Source: a virus. Taken from it: DNA of 30,528 nt. The stretch covers positions 1-30,528 of the IMG/VR virus record IMGVR_UViG_3300031539_004931; one strand, written 5' to 3'. Below are positions 176 through 30,528 of the stretch, piece after piece (the stretch's first letter is position 1; every line of letters starts with the position of its first letter). Under the pieces are notes generated by a model, which ran no database searches, was not told where the DNA came from, and worked only from the letters and a program-made list of their open reading frames with translations. The position numbers and the translations under genes are program-made.

Positions 176-730
176 ATGACCTGCATTGTGGGCCTCGTGG
201 CCCAGAAGGACAGGGCCGTATGGCTGGGAGCCGACAGCGCGGGAGTTGCGGGCTTGGGGCTTATGGTTCGCAAGGACGCCAAGGTATTTCGTGTCGGTCA
301 GTATGCCATCGGCATTACCGGCTCATTCCGCATGGGCCAACTGATTCAGCACGCATTCCAGCCCCCGCGATTCAATGGTGCCGGGCCAACGCACAAATTC
401 ATGTGTACGGCATTCGTCGATGCGCTTCGCACGTGCCTGAAGGCTGGCGGCTTCCTGAAGATTGAAAATGGTGTTGAGGAGGGCGGGTTCTTTTTGGTCG
501 GCGCCGCCGCCCGTCTCTATCGTATCGAGAGCGATTTGCAGGTCGGCGAGTCCGTATTGCCCTATGACGCAATAGGCTGCGGAGCGGAGATTGCTCTTGG
601 TGCCATGTACGCCACGGCCGCGATGGAGCCCAAGGTCCGCTTGCGCAGGGCGCTGGGGGCGGCCGAGCAATTCAGTGCGGGCGTGCGGCGACCATTCCAT
701 TGTATGCGACTTGCCGGCGGTCCAGCCTAG
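176..730 (+). CDS. Ntn-hydrolase, HslV/20S proteasome beta-like peptidase
   Basis: The 184-aa product starts MTCIVGLVA. Removing Met1 would expose Thr2 as an N-terminal nucleophile, as in HslV and proteasome beta subunits. The segment WLGADSAGVAG (Asp20) and VRKDAKVFRV (Lys33/Lys36) sit where the family keeps its catalytic Asp and Lys, and GITGSFRMGQL and the late CGAEIALGAMYA and AAEQFSAGV segments continue the fold. The length fits a single Ntn domain. The start is set by GAGAAGGGGA about 7 nt upstream. Proteasome-like subunits of this type occur in phages and actinobacteria as stand-alone genes, with no ATPase partner nearby, as here. The role may be in head maturation or virion protein processing, which is inference. 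Autoprocessing and oligomer state cannot be read from sequence. Confidence 0.75.
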   Translation: MTCIVGLVAQKDRAVWLGADSAGVAGLGLMVRKDAKVFRVGQYAIGITGSFRMGQLIQHAFQPPRFNGAGPTHKFMCTAFVDALRTCLKAGGFLKIENGVEEGGFFLVGAAARLYRIESDLQVGESVLPYDAIGCGAEIALGAMYATAAMEPKVRLRRALGAAEQFSAGVRRPFHCMRLAGGPA

Positions 731-753
731 CAGACGAGAAGGGAGACAGGATT

Positions 754-1548
754 GTGAGCGATGAAGTAGCGCCGGAATTGACGCCGGCACAGCAGAAGCT
801 CAAAGACGCAGTGGACGCGATACCGTTCTGGTATCACAGGATCAAATTGCCGGGCGGGATCGTGACGCCGGGTAATCAGCCTGTGGCACCCAATATATAC
901 CGGATTCCCATGGACCTGTCGGGCCTGCGGATTCTGGACGTTGGCGCATGGGATGGGTACTGGACGTTTGAGGCCCTGAAGCGGGGCGCCCGGGAGGTGG
1001 TCGCGATAGACGACTTCTCAGACATCACCAACTTTCGGCCCGGCGACGGCTGGCAGACATTCGACTTATGCCGCGACGCACTCGGCTATGGCAACGACCG
1101 TTGCAAGCGGATCAACATGTCCGCCTATGAGGTGACGGAAGAGCGCCTAGGCCGCTTCGACATGGTGTTCTTCCTGGGCACGCTTTACCACTGTCGCTAC
1201 CCCCTATTCGCCCTGGACCACCTGAGCAGCGTCTGTGGCGGCGACATCTACGTCGAGTCGGCCATTTGCGATGACTTCAGCCCGTATCATGGTGGCCTTG
1301 GGTGCGGCTATCCCAAACAGCAGCCCGTCATGGAATTCTACCCGACGGACCAGTATGCCCAAAATCCCACCAACTGGTGGGTTCCGACGCTGCAACTGGT
1401 GGGCACGATGCTATTGTCGGCCGGCTGGAAGCGGGCGTTTATGTGGAAGCTGACAGATGCCCCGGATTGCATTCAAGCGTGCCGCGGCTTTGCCAAGGGC
1501 GAGAAGTCCGAAGAGAAAAAGGGGCTAGAGAAAGGCGGCAACATCTAA
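754..1548 (+). CDS. SAM-dependent methyltransferase, CmoB/DUF1698-like
   Basis: The GTG start at 754 is preferred because GAGAAGGGAGA lies 7 nt upstream. A longer reading from 700 would overlap the previous gene. The 264-aa product has a class I SAM motif (LDVGAWDGYWTFEA, residues about 61-74), an acidic motif II (VVAIDDF) and MVFFLGTLYHCRYP, which resembles the post-motif of CmoB-type tRNA uridine carboxymethyltransferase relatives (DUF1698). The C-terminus is charged and probably disordered (KSEEKKGLEKGG). It may modify a small molecule, glycan or tRNA; the substrate is not readable. It lies directly before a second methyltransferase-type gene, which suggests a joint decoration function. 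Confidence 0.7.
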   Translation: MSDEVAPELTPAQQKLKDAVDAIPFWYHRIKLPGGIVTPGNQPVAPNIYRIPMDLSGLRILDVGAWDGYWTFEALKRGAREVVAIDDFSDITNFRPGDGWQTFDLCRDALGYGNDRCKRINMSAYEVTEERLGRFDMVFFLGTLYHCRYPLFALDHLSSVCGGDIYVESAICDDFSPYHGGLGCGYPKQQPVMEFYPTDQYAQNPTNWWVPTLQLVGTMLLSAGWKRAFMWKLTDAPDCIQACRGFAKGEKSEEKKGLEKGGNI

Positions 1549-3540: not shown

Positions 3541-4347
3541 ATGGCGCTTGTCCAGACAATAGGCCCGACCGCCGAGCCGATTTCCGTAACTGAGGCGAAA
3601 AGCCATCTGCGCGTCAGCCATAGCACGGATGACACGCTGATTGGCAGTCTGATTGCCGCGGCGCGGGAATATGCGGAGCGCGTGACCCGCCGGCAGCTTG
3701 TCGTTGCCACGTACAAACTGTACATGGACGCATTCCCCGCTCGCATCGTGCTGCCCCGGCCGCCATTCGCCCAGCTCGCCGCTGCGACGCCGGTCCAGTA
3801 TGTGGACACAGACGGCGTGACCCAGACCGTGGCCGCCGCCACCTATTCCGTGCGCAGCCACGACGAGCCCGCGTACATCGAGGAGGCCTATGGCTATTCC
3901 TGGCCCACGCCACGGGGAGTGACGGATGCCGTGTGGGTGACGTACATCGCCGGCTATGCCTGCCCGGCCGCATCAACCTTTGCATCCGATATTCTGACTT
4001 GTAGCGGGCGAACCTACACGGACGCCGATATCGTGCGGCTGACGACGACCGAAGGTGACTTGCCGAGCCCGCTGGCTATCACGACGAATTACCATGTCCG
4101 CGACGTGGCCGGCGCGACTCTTAAGCTGGCGGCGGCTGCCGGCGGTGCTGCAATCAGCCTGACGGACGACGGTACGGGGACGCATTTCGTCGGCGAGATT
4201 CCCGAGGGTATTCGGGCAGGCATAAAGTTACTGGTCGGACATCTGTACGAAAACCGCGAAGCGACAACCGAGCTTGCCTTGCGGAAGGTGCCGCTGGCCG
4301 TCGAAACATTGCTTTGGCAGAATAAGATGCCGGAGGCTCACGGCTGA
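3541..4347 (+). CDS. Head-tail connector, gp6-like, with an inserted beta module
   Basis: The N-terminal part has the hallmarks of gp6-like head-tail connectors: EPISVTEAKSHLRV at 12-25, the helix DTLIGSLIAAAREYAERVTRRQL and then a beta region. The closing helix PEGIRAGIKLLVGHLYENRE is at 221-240. The product is 268 aa, longer than most of the family, because about 80 residues (near 140-218) interrupt it. They read GRTYTDADIVRLTTT, DLPSPLAITTNYHVRD, AGATLKLAAAAGGAAISLTDDGTGTHF. The same type of module interrupts the tail terminator at 8612. It starts a tightly packed connector block. Confidence 0.8.
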   Translation: MALVQTIGPTAEPISVTEAKSHLRVSHSTDDTLIGSLIAAAREYAERVTRRQLVVATYKLYMDAFPARIVLPRPPFAQLAAATPVQYVDTDGVTQTVAAATYSVRSHDEPAYIEEAYGYSWPTPRGVTDAVWVTYIAGYACPAASTFASDILTCSGRTYTDADIVRLTTTEGDLPSPLAITTNYHVRDVAGATLKLAAAAGGAAISLTDDGTGTHFVGEIPEGIRAGIKLLVGHLYENREATTELALRKVPLAVETLLWQNKMPEAHG

Positions 4348-4943
4348 TGTTTGCCATTCACAAGATGATCGCCGCCTTTTCGATTGCCCGAATCCGCAAA
4401 GCCAATGCTCGGTTCGACGGCGCCAAGCTACTGGCCGCGAATACCACCGCTATAGCAGCCGCAACGCCGAGCCGTCTGCTGGCGGCCTTCAAGGACTTCC
4501 TGTCTCTTAACGACACCCCGATTCCCGCCGGCGATGATGCCTTGCTCGTCGCCCTCCTTCGGGCCAACAGGGGGTTGCGGACTTTTGCCGATATCGTCGT
4601 CAGGGCCGGCGTGCTATTCATCGCCGACGACGCCTTCGACTACGACGCCCAGGCCGTTGCGAAGGTGCTCGCCAAGGCCGACGGCGCCGGCTTCGCCATG
4701 CTCGCCGAGCTGCGGGGCGCCCTGGCCGGGTGCGAGTGGAACAAAGACGCCCTGCACGCCCTGATCGAGCGCATCTGCCGCGACAAGCAGGTCGGCATGG
4801 GCAAGGTCGCCCAGCCGATCCGCGTGGCCGTGGCGGGCACTACCGTCAGCCCGGGGATCGTCGAGACGCTGATGCTGCTGGGAAAGGACAAGGCCCTTGC
4901 CCGGATTGACCGCTGCCTGACCCTGCGGGGGGTACACGCCTGA
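4347..4943 (+). CDS. Stand-alone C-terminal (anticodon-binding) domain of glutamyl-tRNA synthetase
   Basis: ATG overlaps the TGA of the connector gene, so the two are coupled. All 198 residues match the C-terminal part of bacterial GluRS as I know it: FSIARIRKANARFDGAKL near 11-28, NRGLRTFADI near 74-83, a DYDAQAVAKVLAK stretch, and the terminal signature GKVAQPIRVAVAGTTVSPGI (152-171) and LLGKDKALARIDRCL. The catalytic Rossmann fold with its HIGH and KMSKS motifs is absent, and nothing upstream in any frame supplies it. It therefore cannot charge tRNA by itself. It may bind tRNA-Glu, compete with or inhibit the host enzyme, or be a captured host relic. The intact frame and full codon continuity argue for function. 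Confidence 0.8.
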   Translation: MFAIHKMIAAFSIARIRKANARFDGAKLLAANTTAIAAATPSRLLAAFKDFLSLNDTPIPAGDDALLVALLRANRGLRTFADIVVRAGVLFIADDAFDYDAQAVAKVLAKADGAGFAMLAELRGALAGCEWNKDALHALIERICRDKQVGMGKVAQPIRVAVAGTTVSPGIVETLMLLGKDKALARIDRCLTLRGVHA

Positions 4944-4974: not shown

Positions 4975-5256
4975 ATGAACTTTAGTGAGAATCCGGACGT
5001 TTGGGTATGCAGAGCAATCATGCGGGTTTCGCCAGAGTGGCTTGTCCATTGGATATCGCCCGGCGTCTGCGGCCCGTATCGAATAATCGGCGGCTATCGT
5101 GATGCAAAGATTCTGGACGTGCGATTCAATCTGGCCCATGATTACATAGAGATTGTTTTTGACTCGCCCGATTTGCCTCCGATCCCGAAGGGCGGGCTAC
5201 TGCCGCTTGTAGGGGTCACGCTAGAGCGAATTCCCGCAGACCCCTGTCCAGAGTAG
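4975..5256 (+). CDS. Hypothetical 93-aa protein
   Basis: AAGGAGAAGGGAAC lies directly before the ATG. The product mixes aromatic and short beta stretches (DVWVCRAIMRVSPEWLVHWI, KILDVRFNLAHDYIEIVFDS) and ends in a Pro-rich tail. I do not recognise it. It sits with the GluRS-like gene between the connector and the head-tail adaptor, so those two genes look like a two-gene insertion in an otherwise standard head block. Confidence 0.5.
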   Translation: MNFSENPDVWVCRAIMRVSPEWLVHWISPGVCGPYRIIGGYRDAKILDVRFNLAHDYIEIVFDSPDLPPIPKGGLLPLVGVTLERIPADPCPE

Positions 5257-5261
5257 AACTC

Positions 5262-5579
5262 ATGCTCGCCGGCAAGCTAAGACATCGCATCGCCGTCCAA
5301 TCCCGCGCCCAGGCGGCCAACGCCTACGGGGAGATTGCCGATACCTGGGCCACGGACGCCACGGTATGGGGCTCTATCGAGCCGCTGACTGGCGAAGAGC
5401 GACTTGTCGGCGACGCAATCCAGGCGCAGGCCAGTCACCGCGTGCGCCTACGATACCGAGCCATGACGCCTAGAAATCGACTTCTATTTGGCACCCGCGT
5501 CTTTGAGGTCGTGCGCGTGGACAATCCCGGCGAGCGGGGGGCCGAGCTTGACGTGCTGGTCAGGGAGACGGTGACGTAA
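5262..5579 (+). CDS. Phage head-tail adaptor (head closure, SPP1 gp16-like)
   Basis: The 105-aa product has the family layout: MLAGKLRHRIAVQSRA, then a W near residue 29 (ADTWATDATVWGSIEPLTGEERLVGDAIQA), then a second beta half SHRVRLRYRAMTPRNRLLFGTRVFEVVRV and GAELDVLVRE. This matches the phage head-tail joining family (PF05521). It closes the head below the connector. Its stop overlaps the next start by one base (TAATG). Confidence 0.85.
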   Translation: MLAGKLRHRIAVQSRAQAANAYGEIADTWATDATVWGSIEPLTGEERLVGDAIQAQASHRVRLRYRAMTPRNRLLFGTRVFEVVRVDNPGERGAELDVLVRETVT

Positions 5580-6139
5580 TGGCGGCGGGTACGACCATTC
5601 AGCTTCGGGGGGCAAAGGAGTTGGAGCGCAAGCTCGTGGCGCTGGGGCGCAAGGCCGGCGGGAACATTGCCCGCAAGGGCTTGCGGGCAGGCGCGAAAAT
5701 CATACAGGCCGGCGTCAAGGCTAATGCGGCGGCGAGGCTTGGCGGCAGCTTAGGAGGGGCAATCGCCAGGGCAACTGTTGTCCGCGCCCAGAAGAAGAAG
5801 CGCAAGGGCATGGCCGGGGCCAATGTGCTCTACAAGAGCACCGATGAGCTGATCTATTATACCAAGGGGCTTTTTGTGAAGACCACCAAAAAGGGGCGGG
5901 TTCGGGGGGCCGCGCTAATTCATCGGCGATATTTCCTGCCGGTTGCGATTGAGTTCGGGCACGCCGGCCCTGGGCGCGGGGCGTCAAAAGAAAAGGTTAG
6001 CCGCCCCATTCCGATCATGCGAGCCGCCTTTGACGATACCGCGCGCATAGCGCTTCAGAAAACCATGAAGGTGATCTGGCAGCAAATTGACGACTTCGGC
6101 AAGGGGCCGGTTGAGATACACGTGTGGCGTGGCGTTTAA
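5579..6139 (+). CDS. HK97 gp10-like tail completion protein
   Basis: IQLRGAKELERKLVALGRKAGGNIARKGLRAGAKIIQAGVKANAA is the typical N-terminus of HK97 gp10-like proteins (PF04883), and FLPVAIEFGHAG gives the usual late aromatic/Glu segment. The product is 186 aa, within the family range, and basic (QKKKRKGM). The order connector, adaptor, gp10-like is the standard neck and tail-completion order of siphoviruses. Confidence 0.75.
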   Translation: MAAGTTIQLRGAKELERKLVALGRKAGGNIARKGLRAGAKIIQAGVKANAAARLGGSLGGAIARATVVRAQKKKRKGMAGANVLYKSTDELIYYTKGLFVKTTKKGRVRGAALIHRRYFLPVAIEFGHAGPGRGASKEKVSRPIPIMRAAFDDTARIALQKTMKVIWQQIDDFGKGPVEIHVWRGV

Positions 6140-8611: not shown

Positions 8612-9292
8612 ATGGCTATCGAGCAGGCAATCTATAGCATTCTGGCCAGCGATATTGCGGCCAAGGCGATTCTGTCTACCCATGGCCTGACGACCGCCGA
8701 TGCGGTAACGCTGACCACCACCCTGGCCGACCTGCCGGCGCCTCTGGCAGTAGCCACGACCTACTATGCCCGCGTTCTGCTGGGCACCACCATCAGCCTG
8801 CACCCGACGGCGGCAAACGCCACGGCGAACACCGCCAAGATCGACATTACGGACGCGGGCAGCGGAACCCACACCTGCATTCCGACAGCCCGGCCGGTGG
8901 AGTGGTTTGCCTTCGCGGCGGACGCCGCCACGGACATTTGCACCTCGACGCGCTGCCGGGTCTATCCGCAGGCCATTCCGCAGGACAGCCTCTTGCCCTG
9001 CATTGTGTACGAGCGAATCAGTACGCCGCGGGTATCCTCTCTGACTGGGACCGCGGGCATCGCCACGCCGCGCATGCAGATCGTGTCATGGGCGGATACA
9101 TACTCGGGCGCCAAGACGCTGGCCGATGCCGTGCGGAATGCCCTGGACGACTACACCGGCGAAGTTGACGGTCTCTATATCGGCTGGATACGCATCGAGG
9201 ACGAGGGGGACATGATCGACCTTTCGGTAGGCATGGATTCCGAGCGCGTCTATGGCGTTCGGCAGGACTTCGTGATTCAGCACTTCGAGTAA
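8612..9292 (+). CDS. Tail terminator/completion protein (DUF3168-like) with an inserted beta module
   Basis: The gene starts directly after the previous stop. Residues 1-17 (MAIEQAIYSILASDIAA) and 106-226 (DICTSTRCRVYPQAIPQDSLLPCIVYERIS ... AKTLADAVRNALDDYTGE ... RQDFVIQHFE) form a DUF3168-type tail terminator. In this family the first helix normally leads straight to the RVYP strand. Here about 75 residues separate them (DAVTLTTTLADLPAPLAVATTYYAR ... ITDAGSGTHT), the same type of module that interrupts the connector at 3541. It would cap the tail tube at the head side. Confidence 0.75.
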   Translation: MAIEQAIYSILASDIAAKAILSTHGLTTADAVTLTTTLADLPAPLAVATTYYARVLLGTTISLHPTAANATANTAKIDITDAGSGTHTCIPTARPVEWFAFAADAATDICTSTRCRVYPQAIPQDSLLPCIVYERISTPRVSSLTGTAGIATPRMQIVSWADTYSGAKTLADAVRNALDDYTGEVDGLYIGWIRIEDEGDMIDLSVGMDSERVYGVRQDFVIQHFE

Positions 9293-19960: not shown

Positions 19961-20034
19961 CGCGGGGTAGGGCAGCCCGGTAGCCCGCCAGGCCCATACC
20001 CTGGAGGTCGCGGGTTCAAATCCCGCCCCCGCTA
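19961..20034 (+). tRNA. tRNA-Met(CAT), initiator-like, with C33
   Basis: The 74 nt fold as a full cloverleaf: acceptor CGCGGGG with CCCCGCT, D stem GGGC/GCCC, anticodon stem CCAGG/CCTGG, loop CCCATAC, variable AGGTC, T arm GCGGG-TTCAAAT-CCCGC, then A73; CCA is not encoded. Initiator marks are the unpaired 1:72 position (C with T), a purine 11:pyrimidine 24 pair (G:C) and overall similarity to bacterial tRNA-fMet. Departures are C instead of the near-universal T at position 33, and A29:T41 in place of the first of the three G:C pairs. It ends about 30 nt before a terminator. Confidence 0.85.
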
Positions 20035-20064
20035 CGTTGCCCCCGGGGACAGCATCCCCGGCCC

Positions 20065-23401: not shown

Positions 23402-23652
23402 CTGACCTCCGCGAACAAGCCGTTGCCGAAATCCTGGCCCGCATGGAGGCGCTGGGCTGGGTTAGCAGGGCCGGCACACGGCTCGGCCAGCCCGGTCCCG
23501 GTCCTTTCGTCCGAGAGACCACCGGCATAGGCGAGGGCGTGATACGCCGAGCCCTGGGCCGCGACGGCGAGAGCAGCCCGTCGCTGGCAAGCCTAGATGA
23601 TATCGCGCGCGCCATGGGCGGGCACTGGCAGTTGGCGTTTGTGCCGGACTAG
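23398..23652 (+). CDS. Putative HTH-type protein
   Basis: The gene starts in an ATGA overlap. The 84-aa product has a helical N-terminus (REQAVAEILARMEALGW), then GIGEGVIRRALGRDGESSPSLASLDDIARAMG, which reads like an XRE-type helix-turn-helix with a long turn, and LAFVPD at the end. It is the last gene of the accessory operon, and its 3' end overlaps the integrase gene on the other strand by 4 nt. A control role for the integrase region is possible. Confidence 0.5.
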   Translation: MTDLREQAVAEILARMEALGWVSRAGTRLGQPGPGPFVRETTGIGEGVIRRALGRDGESSPSLASLDDIARAMGGHWQLAFVPD

Positions 23653-24716
23653 AGCCTACTGATCTGCTCTGCCCCATGCCCCGGCGCCAGGTGGGCGTAC
23701 CGCATAGTCGTCCGCAGGTCCAGGTGCCCCATCCATTCCGCAACCGTCCGCAGGTCTATTCCGCGCTGTACAGCCCGGCTGGCGAAGGTGTGTCTGAGTA
23801 GATGCCAGCCCCGGCCGACCCGCGCCCCCTCGGCCTCGCCGAAGATAGGCATTGCCTTGGCAATCGGCCGGAAGGCCCGCAGCCAGGTCATGTGCGATGG
23901 CCGGCAGAAGACCAGCTCGGCGGGCCGACCGCGCGGCAGGGCGGCCAGTGCCTTGGCGACCTTCGGATGCAGCGGGATGGCGCGGGCCTTGCCGGTCTTG
24001 CTGATCAGCACCACAATTCTATCCAGCCGAACGTCCCGCCAGGTCAGCCGGCGAAGCTCGGACAGCCGCATGCCCGTGTACAGGGCCGTCACCACCTCGG
24101 TGTAGAGCCCATGCGCCCGGGCCAGGTCCAGCAGGCAGGCAACCTGCTGATCGTCCAGGAATCGCGGCGGCGGCAACGTACGACGCGGCGGTCGCACCTG
24201 CCTGGCCGGGTTGCTGTCGAGCAGACCGCGGAGACGTAGGAACTCACAGAACCGGCTGAGGGCGTGCCGGTGATTGATGATGGTCGCCGGTGCCCTGCCA
24301 AGCTGGCTCAGGTGGCCCAGGTGATCCTGTACGGCGGCAGCGGTGATTTCCTGCGGGTCTATCCGGGCGTGGTCCAGGAACGCCCTGACGGCTGCTGCGT
24401 TGTGGGCGGCCTGGCCCTTGCTCGATTCCAGGGCCGAGGCTTGCCGGAAGGTGGCCAGCAGGGCGGCGGTGTCACGGGGCTTCTCGCCGCCCACGCGGGT
24501 CTGCCAGAGCTGGCGGGCGATGTACGCGGCGACGGCCTTGTCCCGCGTGGCCCACGGGGACCCGCGGGGCTTCAATGGGATGCGAGAGGCCGCTGAATCC
24601 CCTGGAAACCTGACCTTCCACCACCACCGCCGACCGCGCTGATAGAGGTGCCCGGCGGGCACTTCTCGGCGCCTTTTGGGCACAAGCGGAGGCACAGGCT
24701 TTCGGCGCCTTGTCAT
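23649..24716 (-). CDS. int: Tyrosine site-specific integrase
   Basis: The 355-aa product has the full catalytic set of phage integrases: Arg217 (TGMRLSELRRL), Lys in KTGKAR near 240-243, His305/Arg308 (HLLRHTFAS), His331 (MGHLD) and Tyr340 (TTMRYAH). A SAM-like core-binding domain occupies about 80-170 (FLDHARID ... LSRFCEFLRLRGLL), and the basic N-terminus would bind arm sites. AAGGA lies before the ATG. It acts on the half-tRNA core immediately upstream (24736-24776). It is transcribed towards the accessory operon. Confidence 0.9.
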   Translation of the reverse strand: MTRRRKPVPPLVPKRRREVPAGHLYQRGRRWWWKVRFPGDSAASRIPLKPRGSPWATRDKAVAAYIARQLWQTRVGGEKPRDTAALLATFRQASALESSKGQAAHNAAAVRAFLDHARIDPQEITAAAVQDHLGHLSQLGRAPATIINHRHALSRFCEFLRLRGLLDSNPARQVRPPRRTLPPPRFLDDQQVACLLDLARAHGLYTEVVTALYTGMRLSELRRLTWRDVRLDRIVVLISKTGKARAIPLHPKVAKALAALPRGRPAELVFCRPSHMTWLRAFRPIAKAMPIFGEAEGARVGRGWHLLRHTFASRAVQRGIDLRTVAEWMGHLDLRTTMRYAHLAPGHGAEQISRL

Positions 24717-24735: not shown

Positions 24736-24776
24736 TGCCCCCATGGGGATTCGAACCCCAGTTGCCGGGTTGAAAA
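24736..24776 (-). other. attP core candidate: 3' half of tRNA-Glu(UUC)
   Basis: On the minus strand this 41-nt stretch reads from the anticodon loop (TTTTCAA with anticodon TTC) through an intact T arm (TGGGG-TTCGAAT-CCCCA) to the acceptor 3' strand and a final A. The 5' half of the tRNA is not present beside it, so it is not a tRNA gene. Such half tRNAs next to int are typical attachment cores that restore the host tRNA on integration. Two TTGCCGA-type repeats within 24783-24812 may be arm sites. From 24777 to 24946 I see no gene. Confidence 0.75.
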
Positions 24777-27979: not shown

Positions 27980-28049
27980 ATCTGCGGGGCCGGCCTGCCT
28001 GTAGTTGCCACCCAGGAAACCAGTGCCGGCCCCACTGAAAGGAAACGTC

Positions 28050-29522
28050 ATGAGCAAGGCGAGAAAAACACCTAGGGCGCGGGCCAGTCCAGTCGTGAAA
28101 CCCATTAAGAAGCTGCCCGCGCCCACCGAAACGAAACGCGGCGGCCAGGACTCGCGTGATACCCAAAGGTCGGGTGCCGCCGCGCCGAAATCGGGGCGGG
28201 CCAGACACGCAGCGTCACCCAAGAGAATTTTGCCCGCTTCATTGAAAATATCGGACGGCGGCCCAGTACCATTTGGTGCCCAAAACGTGAATGCCGCCGC
28301 GCCGAAATCGGGGCGGGCCGGGCCTGCGGTGTCACCCAATAAGATTGTGCCCGCCCCAACTGAAACGCCGGGCGGCGGCCATTGCCTTGTTGCTACCCAG
28401 GATTCGGGTGCCCCCGCCCGGACGAAAACGAAAGCCGGCGACCATTCCATCGCTGACACCCCGGACTTGCGTGTCGCCGGCAAGAAAACAAAGGGGCGGG
28501 CCAAGGCTGCCTTGTCACCCCTGGGCCCCGTGCCCGCCCCTTCCGATACCGCCGACGATCAGGGCCCAATCGAGCACGACAACCGAATCACTGGTGCCCT
28601 GTCGCCGGCAGAAACCCCTGGGGGCGGCCAGCAGCATATTGATACCCCAAAGCCGATTGCCGCCCCCGACGACATCCCCCTCCGCCTCATGGACCTTCAG
28701 CGAGCCCGCGTGGCCACGATCAAGGCCCAGCGGTCGCTGAATAACCGCGTCCGGTCCTACGTCCGCCGGGCGATGGGCTGGCAGACGGACCTGCCGGAAG
28801 CCGACCGCAAGCGGATTAATACCGCTGCGGCCAAGCTGGTCAAGGCCGTCGAGAAGGGCACCCCGGCAGACGGCGACAGCGCCGCGACTGCCGAGTTGGC
28901 CGTCCGCTTTATTGTCGCCTGCAAGCGCGCCCGCGAAGCCCTGGACGAAGAGCGCGTCCTGATCGAAAAGGAAATGCTCAAGCTGGCCAAGGCCCTGCTG
29001 GTGTGGAGATGGGCCCTGGCCCAGATCGGCTTCGGCGCCCTCGGCCTGGCCATCATCGTCGGCGAGGCCGGCGACCTCGGCAAGTACGACAACCCCGCGA
29101 AACTCTGGAAGCGCTTCGGCGTGGGCCTTGTCGGCGAGCGAACGCAGGGCAAGCCCGGCAAGGGCGCCACGGCAGAGGACTGGATTGCCCACGGGTACAA
29201 CCCCCAGCGGCGCTCGGCCCTCTGGACCATCGGGGACTGTCTGGTCAAGCAGGGCAACGGCTACCGTGAAGTCTTCCTGGCCCGCAAGCACCAGGAGTGC
29301 GAGAAGGCCGTCGCCGAGGGGCTCATCGTTACATGCACTACGCAGGCCACACTGGACAACTGGAAGGCCGTCGGCCTGCCGGCGCCGATCCGCATCAAGA
29401 GCAAGCAGTTTGACCCGGCGAAGCATCGAGCTGCCGGACACATTCACAAGCGCGCACAACGATACATGGAAAAGCGCCTGCTCCGCGACCTCTGGCGGGC
29501 ATGGCGGGGGGTAACTGCGTGA
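28050..29522 (+). CDS. IS110-type C-terminal domain protein with repetitive basic N-terminus
   Basis: AAAGGAAAC selects ATG 28050. Of 490 aa, about the first 210 are low-complexity with Lys/Arg/Pro/Ala repeats of roughly 38 residues (core AAAPKSGRA), probably disordered and DNA-binding. Residues 220-320 are helical. Residues 325-360 (QIGFGALGLAIIVGEAGDLGKYDN, KLWKRFGVGL) and NPQRRSALWTIGDCLVKQ near 384-401 match the C-terminal Transposase_20 domain of IS110-family enzymes. No DEDD (RuvC-like) domain and no obvious catalytic Ser are seen. No insertion-sequence ends flank it. It is probably an exapted DNA-binding factor rather than a working transposase. Confidence 0.6.
   Translation: MSKARKTPRARASPVVKPIKKLPAPTETKRGGQDSRDTQRSGAAAPKSGRARHAASPKRILPASLKISDGGPVPFGAQNVNAAAPKSGRAGPAVSPNKIVPAPTETPGGGHCLVATQDSGAPARTKTKAGDHSIADTPDLRVAGKKTKGRAKAALSPLGPVPAPSDTADDQGPIEHDNRITGALSPAETPGGGQQHIDTPKPIAAPDDIPLRLMDLQRARVATIKAQRSLNNRVRSYVRRAMGWQTDLPEADRKRINTAAAKLVKAVEKGTPADGDSAATAELAVRFIVACKRAREALDEERVLIEKEMLKLAKALLVWRWALAQIGFGALGLAIIVGEAGDLGKYDNPAKLWKRFGVGLVGERTQGKPGKGATAEDWIAHGYNPQRRSALWTIGDCLVKQGNGYREVFLARKHQECEKAVAEGLIVTCTTQATLDNWKAVGLPAPIRIKSKQFDPAKHRAAGHIHKRAQRYMEKRLLRDLWRAWRGVTA
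28176..28319 (+). repeat. Coding direct repeat in the basic tail
   Basis: A 27-bp block is present exactly at 28176-28202 and 28293-28319, 117 bp apart (39 codons), within degenerate repeats of the same protein tail. Exact identity in an otherwise diverged repeat suggests recent duplication. Confidence 0.8.
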
Positions 29523-30032: not shown

Positions 30033-30528
30033 TGTGCCAATGTGCCAGCGGTTTCATCAATCCAAAGACGTTTGAGGTTCGCGTCCGCGACCTTGGGAGC
30101 CATAGCAACACAGCCAGGGCTCTCGGCCTGACCGACGACATTGCGCCCGATGGCTGGCGCGAAATGCACTATCTGCCAAATGGCCGAATCGCCTGCCGTG
30201 TTCTACTACAAGATAGTCACACGACAAATGAGTGCATTGCTGCTGTTCTCGCCCGCTGGCCGCGTTTTGTGGATTTCCTGACTTGTGCATGGCCTCAGTG
30301 CCTAGTTGGTGACACTTATCCTGGCTCGCTGTACCTGGACGGCCTGACGAGTGCCGAGGGGCTGACCTTGCCGCAGAGCATCGGCGGCTGGCTGTACCTG
30401 CGCGGCCTGACGAGTGCCGAGGGGCTGACCTTGCCGCAGAGCATCGGCGGCTGGCTGGACCTGCGCGGCCTGACGAGTGCCGAGGGGCTGACCTTGCCGC
30501 AGAGCATCGGCGGCGCGCTGTACCTGCG
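30032..30528 (+). CDS. Leucine-rich repeat phage protein (3' end beyond window)
   Basis: The frame from ATG 30032 stays open to the window end (165 complete codons). About the first 100 residues are a non-repetitive domain with Cys (MCQCASGFINPKTF), followed by tandem 21-residue repeats with the core LYLRGLTSAEGLTLPQSIGG. Solenoid proteins with such L-L-GLTS repeats are found in phages; their functions are mostly unknown. Confidence 0.65.
   Translation, partial: MCQCASGFINPKTFEVRVRDLGSHSNTARALGLTDDIAPDGWREMHYLPNGRIACRVLLQDSHTTNECIAAVLARWPRFVDFLTCAWPQCLVGDTYPGSLYLDGLTSAEGLTLPQSIGGWLYLRGLTSAEGLTLPQSIGGWLDLRGLTSAEGLTLPQSIGGALYL
30341..30528 (+). repeat. 63-bp tandem repeat in the leucine-rich repeat gene
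   Basis: The repeat unit starts at 30341, 30404 and 30467, each 63 bp, almost identical at the DNA level with only a few changes (for example TAC against GAC, and TGG against GCG). The third copy is still incomplete at the window edge. The period keeps the reading frame. Confidence 0.9.

Follow-up and report, generated by a model that had tools for sequence, protein, structure and literature searches.

A gene for the anticodon-binding half of glutamyl-tRNA synthetase between the head genes of a temperate phage, with a possible role in binding host tRNA-Glu

To judge from sequence, the gene at positions 4347-4943 of the window, designated GluRS-C, is inserted cargo in a temperate tailed phage and encodes a bacterial glutamyl-tRNA synthetase (GluRS) reduced to its C-terminal half, an identity that sequence comparison and a predicted structure make firm. 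The window, i.e. the whole stretch of DNA that was analyzed, is a linear IMG/VR virus record of 30,528 bases and is a fragment. By sequence, GluRS-C descends from the 3' end of the gltX gene of Phycisphaerae-type Planctomycetota, and the phage that carries it is a phage of planctomycete-type bacteria. The predicted fold and the retained contact residues suggest that the phage uses GluRS-C to bind host tRNA-Glu. The explanation that we favor as a whole, which is plausible although short of probable, is that the captured gltX 3' end is used as a late, non-charging binder of the tRNA-Glu anticodon arm, acting as a decoy or shield.

Identity and genetic context of GluRS-C

The features of the head module are as follows.

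3541-4347, + strand: gp6-like head-tail connector (adaptor); PF05135 9.7e-11, phrog_40 8.6e-22
4332-4336, + strand: GGAGG, probable ribosome-binding site of GluRS-C, located within the connector gene and 10 bases ahead of the ATG; from the sequence
4347-4943, + strand: GluRS-C, the anticodon-binding C-terminal half of GluRS as a free-standing protein of 198 aa; PF19269, TIGR00464, AlphaFold2, Foldseek
4975-5256, + strand: 93-aa ORFan in the same insertion as GluRS-C; without a family, phage or other viral match
5262-5579, + strand: head-closure (head completion) protein; PF05521 2.4e-23, phrog_25
5579-6139, + strand: HK97 gp10-like neck/tail-completion protein; phrog_5 1e-8, PF04883

The open reading frame runs from ATG to TGA and is intact, as the earlier note had stated. 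The Anticodon_2 family (PF19269) matched residues 72-190 (3.3e-28, 99.3 bits against a curated Pfam cut-off of 23.6). When the bacterial GluRS model TIGR00464 was used, the whole open reading frame covered positions 281-465 of 470, i.e. the last 185, and its score of 66.4 bits against the enzyme cut-off of 289.95 places it outside the complete enzymes. A PDB sequence search returned 18 GluRS sequences, and all matches were glutamate-tRNA ligases. Chance similarity to GluRS was ruled out by these PF19269, TIGR00464 and PDB matches. GluRS-C shares the conserved motif GMGKVAQPxRVAxxGTTVSP with bacterial gltX and has the natural C-terminal end of GluRS, while its first 12 residues or so are no longer GluRS-like. 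On the domain layout of Thermus GluRS, the protein begins within the stem-contact fold, off a domain border.

The AlphaFold2 model of GluRS-C had a mean pLDDT of 91.5, with lower values only in residues 1-30 and the last residues. The input alignment was made of 47 GluRS C-halves and the model therefore indicates compatibility with the fold rather than independent proof of it. Foldseek matched the model to GluRS in the PDB with an E value of 4e-7, and all matches with E <0.001 were GluRS, so that the structure prediction proposed by the earlier note agreed with the sequence assignment. Both the Pfam score and the GluRS anticodon-binding fold place GluRS-C in the Anticodon_2 family. The note had described an anticodon-binding half that lacks its catalytic half, and no catalytic domain came to light elsewhere: the catalytic family PF00749 had no match anywhere in the record, itself a fragment.

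The stop codon of the connector gene (TGA, 4345-4347) and the start codon of GluRS-C (ATG, 4347-4349) overlap as TGATG; together with the GGAGG this bears out the shared stop/start reported previously. A scan of the + strand with sigma-70 and terminator consensus sequences, which would miss other promoter types, recognized neither a promoter nor a terminator belonging to GluRS-C. Expression of GluRS-C with the late head genes would therefore be expected.

Insertion and origin

In the prophages L147-L151 of Phycisphaerae-class genomes, the connector and head-closure genes adjoin and there is no GluRS piece; the viral contigs L155 and L158 likewise have the connector directly beside head closure. 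Because the two genes are adjacent in these seven relatives, the stretch of about 0.9 kb containing GluRS-C and the 93-aa ORFan was taken to be an insertion between two complete genes. The earlier view that no such gene is expected at this site was thus upheld, and the search for the same gene in related phages, which the note had also suggested, found it absent from these seven. As regards the usual marks of a moron, GluRS-C is inserted between genes that are adjacent in relatives and lacks a recognized promoter and terminator of its own. Queries of IMG/VR with P0001, the connector and the exact junction returned no relatives, and the free-standing gene was found in one phage only. A second record, L002 (IMGVR_UViG_3300031565_002347), represents the same phage in another sample; it matches from window position 5006 onwards, 63 bases past GluRS-C, and neither confirms nor denies the insertion. 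The sole match of the 93-aa ORFan is in the same phage, and its GC3 of 0.57 is the lowest among the genes examined.

To trace the origin of GluRS-C, 84,980 species genomes were scanned on the basis of a motif, and the class was searched through 397 whole genomes. Its nearest relatives are gltX genes of Phycisphaerae-type Planctomycetota, with at most 66% amino acid identity, and the nearest chromosomal gltX genes are full length where the contig allows. In the maximum-likelihood tree GluRS-C fell among the chromosomal gltX genes of this Phycisphaerae-type clade, on an ordinary end branch (0.52; median 0.44), the tree leaving its exact sister unresolved. Synonymous sites relative to the donor gltX are probably saturated. 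No free C-half was found in the class genomes, where the extra or short matches that were checked proved to lie at contig ends or to be parts of a single gene. All 15 other phage or viral GluRS matches checked have at least some 280 residues in frame upstream, with a KMSKS-type motif. Neither the sequence collections nor the papers that were searched yielded a natural bacterial GluRS anticodon-binding half encoded on its own. In many donor-clade genomes (e.g. G001:C31, G022:C122, G144:C251), only a few kb separate gltX from a gene that carries PF03950, the anticodon domain of GlnRS.

The earlier note had also drawn attention to the integrase and its tRNA target, for which the relevant features are the following.

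23649-24716, - strand: tyrosine integrase; PF00589 4.4e-24
24736-24776, - strand: attP-like 3' half of tRNA-Glu(UUC), 41 nt, about 20 bases before the integrase start; from the sequence

The att-like piece, 24736-24776 (-), reads TTTTCAACCCGGCAACTGGGGTTCGAATCCCCATGGGGGCA and covers tRNA-Glu(UUC) from its anticodon loop through to the 3' terminus. It is identical at up to 37 of 41 positions to ARAGORN-confirmed tRNA-Glu genes of Phycisphaerae-class genomes, which makes tRNA-Glu very likely the target of the integrase. A search of 298 class genomes for the exact host by att sequence gave none with 3 or fewer mismatches over a longer pattern, the best matches being tRNA-Glu(UUC) genes with differences. 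The possibility was considered that GluRS-C was captured through linkage of gltX to a tRNA-Glu att site. This was rejected, as no tRNA-Glu was present in the flanks examined around gltX at 35 related loci. Since no tRNA-Glu was found near gltX at these loci and GluRS-C lies 20 kb from the att site, no causal link is seen between the captured gene and the integrase target. The tRNA-Glu target itself is well supported, whereas the coincidence that the note had called suggestive is probably only a coincidence; a chance match of one amino acid identity would be expected about once in 20 cases.

Several other elements of the record were also noted. A complete tRNA with anticodon CAT (19961-20035, +) lies between the lysis-side and early genes. 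The product of 700-1548 (+) is probably a general methyltransferase. Its best family is TIGR04290 and the second is CmoB (TIGR00452, 1.1e-13, well below the cut-off), which also appears among its PDB matches; CmoB is a tRNA wobble-uridine enzyme. The 505-aa protein of 28005-29522 (+) matched the NCBIfam model NF052498, a "TIGR-Tas system RNA-guided endonuclease", at 2.9e-25, its 89.5 bits falling below the cut-off of 100; a weaker match was to an IS110 transposase. Repeat searches nearby recognized no guide-RNA array. At the cut right end, 30323-30528 (+) contains 3.3 copies of a 63-base tandem repeat, which keep the reading frame of a protein with leucine-rich-type repeats. Finally, the connector (3541-4347, residues ~137-215) and the tail terminator (8612-9292, residues ~6-87) have an inserted domain in common (84 aa aligned at 44% identity, E 4e-11), which is missing from the L155 connector.

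Retention of the domain and its possible use

GluRS-C might be a non-functional passenger, i.e. a gltX 3' end captured recently by illegitimate recombination, translated, useless and too young to have decayed. That it is a single case, absent from related phages, fits such a history. Among the columns that are at least 90% conserved in the gltX clade, 56 of 61 are kept. Functional enzymes with similar branch lengths show comparable numbers of changes, and the five found here (E6K, R25G, F31A, K86R and T183A) stand towards the upper end of their range, which speaks for a passenger. Three of the five fall in residues 1-31, beside the missing half, a clustering that is not significant (p 0.07). 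The hydrophobic core is intact: all 84 hydrophobic-consensus positions are hydrophobic, compared with losses of 0-14, mostly 3-9, in the 34 chromosomal rows. When Ala and Cys were left out of the hydrophobic set, GluRS-C lost 2 of 61, which is ordinary for an enzyme. Simulation of random change indicated that more than about 15-18 substitutions in 576 (3%) are unlikely without loss of the core or a stop codon, and thus allows neutral change up to about that level. The simulation and the intact core together imply either a very recent capture or selection on the fold. A recent capture, which could account for the intact frame, is possible because the GC3 of codons 67-198 (0.85-0.97) is high and host-like, exceeding that of all the phage genes examined (0.57-0.80 for the others), while the first 66 codons have a GC3 of 0.70.

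Other properties of GluRS-C are harder to reconcile with a passenger. Its net charge of +6 is the highest of the 35 rows, the others having -3.1 +/- 3.3, and the shift results from the loss of acidic residues (19 compared with 28.2 +/- 2.6). The removal of about nine acidic residues while the core stayed intact is unlike random change, unless a donor that was not sampled already had this composition. Moreover, the gene is coupled exactly to the connector and has a ribosome-binding site, and 66% is its best identity to any gltX examined. A useless passenger is accordingly regarded as a serious explanation, although a doubtful one.

The preferred reading, in which the captured domain binds tRNA, draws on the contact residues. 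The anticodon contacts of the Thermus enzyme reported by Sekine et al. (2001), R435, T444, P445 and L447, all have counterparts that were counted as kept, with Ser in place of T444 and Ile in place of L447. The position of Arg358 is occupied by Gly76, and Gly is likewise present in 33 of 47 relatives. The earlier note had offered three options, a tRNA binder, an inhibitor of the host enzyme and a structural exaptation. Binding of tRNA is favored among these because the contact residues are kept and the protein has become more basic; such binding could, among other effects, inhibit the host enzyme. A charge of +6 would suit an RNA binder that stands alone, and selection of GluRS-C against dissociation may also be envisaged. 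A precedent for the activity of such a piece is the free GluRS distal domain that reportedly acts in trans (Dubois et al. 2009, by its title as cited in PMC3927822 and PMC4393105).

The favored course of events is as follows. The gltX 3' end, to judge from sequence, was inserted behind the connector gene and ahead of head closure, in frame from an ATG and, given its position, would be translated with the head genes by coupling to the connector. The product is predicted to fold as the anticodon-binding domains of GluRS without the catalytic half and would bind the anticodon arm of host tRNA-Glu with no charging. Late in infection it could compete with host GluRS for tRNA-Glu, or cover the anticodon arm against host factors. 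It is possible, and put forward more tentatively than the mechanism as a whole, that this host-lineage half acts as a stand-alone, non-charging tRNA-Glu decoy or shield, perhaps in the virion neck, and so as a natural dominant-negative effector.

A non-discriminating specificity for both tRNA-Glu and tRNA-Gln, suggested by Gly at the Arg358 position, was considered as well. It was dropped because the donor clade does not lack GlnRS, the GlnRS domain PF03950 being present in 18 of 20 of its genomes. Such a specificity would have fitted the anticodon nuclease RloC, whose targets are tRNA-Glu and tRNA-Gln (PMC3874168). Of 81 class genomes, only 2 carried RloC/PrrC-type PF13166, and a defense-system search gave no match.

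It is unlikely that the helical domain has been exapted as a virion or neck-assembly protein that no longer binds tRNA. The gene does sit between two neck genes, its product shares a basic pI with head closure and gp10, and the phage decorates its neck proteins, as the common inserted domain of the connector and tail terminator indicates. However, the residues that contact tRNA are some of the best preserved, no viral structure matched the model in Foldseek at E <0.001, and related phages assemble without GluRS-C. Equally improbable is a partner role, in which the free distal domain assists the host's GluRS, or an enzyme resembling it, in trans and raises or redirects charging. Such an effect was reported for E. 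coli C-truncated GluRS with its free distal domain, again by the title of Dubois et al., but host-type GluRS genes have their own C-domain. An assembly artifact joining host gltX to the phage contig is very improbable: the junctions occur on this contig only, L002 starting beyond them and queries of IMG/VR finding the junction nowhere else, yet complete connector and head-closure genes lie on either side, stop and start overlap exactly where the two genes join and a ribosome site precedes them, and GluRS-C has a shifted charge and a natural C-terminal end.

Comparison with known systems

Free-standing pieces of synthetases are known, and Glu-Q-RS is the catalytic half of GluRS. GluRS-C adds a free anticodon-binding half to these free-standing synthetase domains, in one phage. 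Glu-Q-RS (YadB) is likewise a natural free-standing GluRS half; however, it is a cellular tRNA-modifying enzyme, and GluRS-C is the opposite piece. Bacterial gltX (TIGR00464, Phycisphaerae-type clade) shares with GluRS-C the C-terminal ~190 residues, the fold and the motif, whereas the phage protein has no catalytic half, is altered in about 12 N-terminal residues, is more basic and is encoded in a head module. GluRS genes do occur in phage records, as in huge phages (e.g. LR756501) and phrog_35649, but these are complete with the catalytic half. The E. coli distal domain named in the title of Dubois et al. is also a separate anticodon-binding part, although it is a laboratory construct, while GluRS-C is natural and of another lineage.

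The capsid-associated protein pp150 of HCMV associates with host tRNA; among the most abundant of these tRNAs, several are tRNA-Glu, and the authors of that study liken the anticodon contact to that of GluRS Arg358 (PMC8448752). Protein and virus are unrelated to those described here; pp150 uses phosphate contacts with low selectivity, and a place of GluRS-C in the virion is hypothetical. If GluRS-C is used, it would give a phage a simple route into the supply of tRNA-Glu or into defenses that target tRNA. Dasgupta and Basu (PMC3927822) proposed that GluRS2 is a chimera and inferred separate transfer of the GluRS C-domain; again if it is used, GluRS-C would illustrate a possible vehicle for such a transfer.
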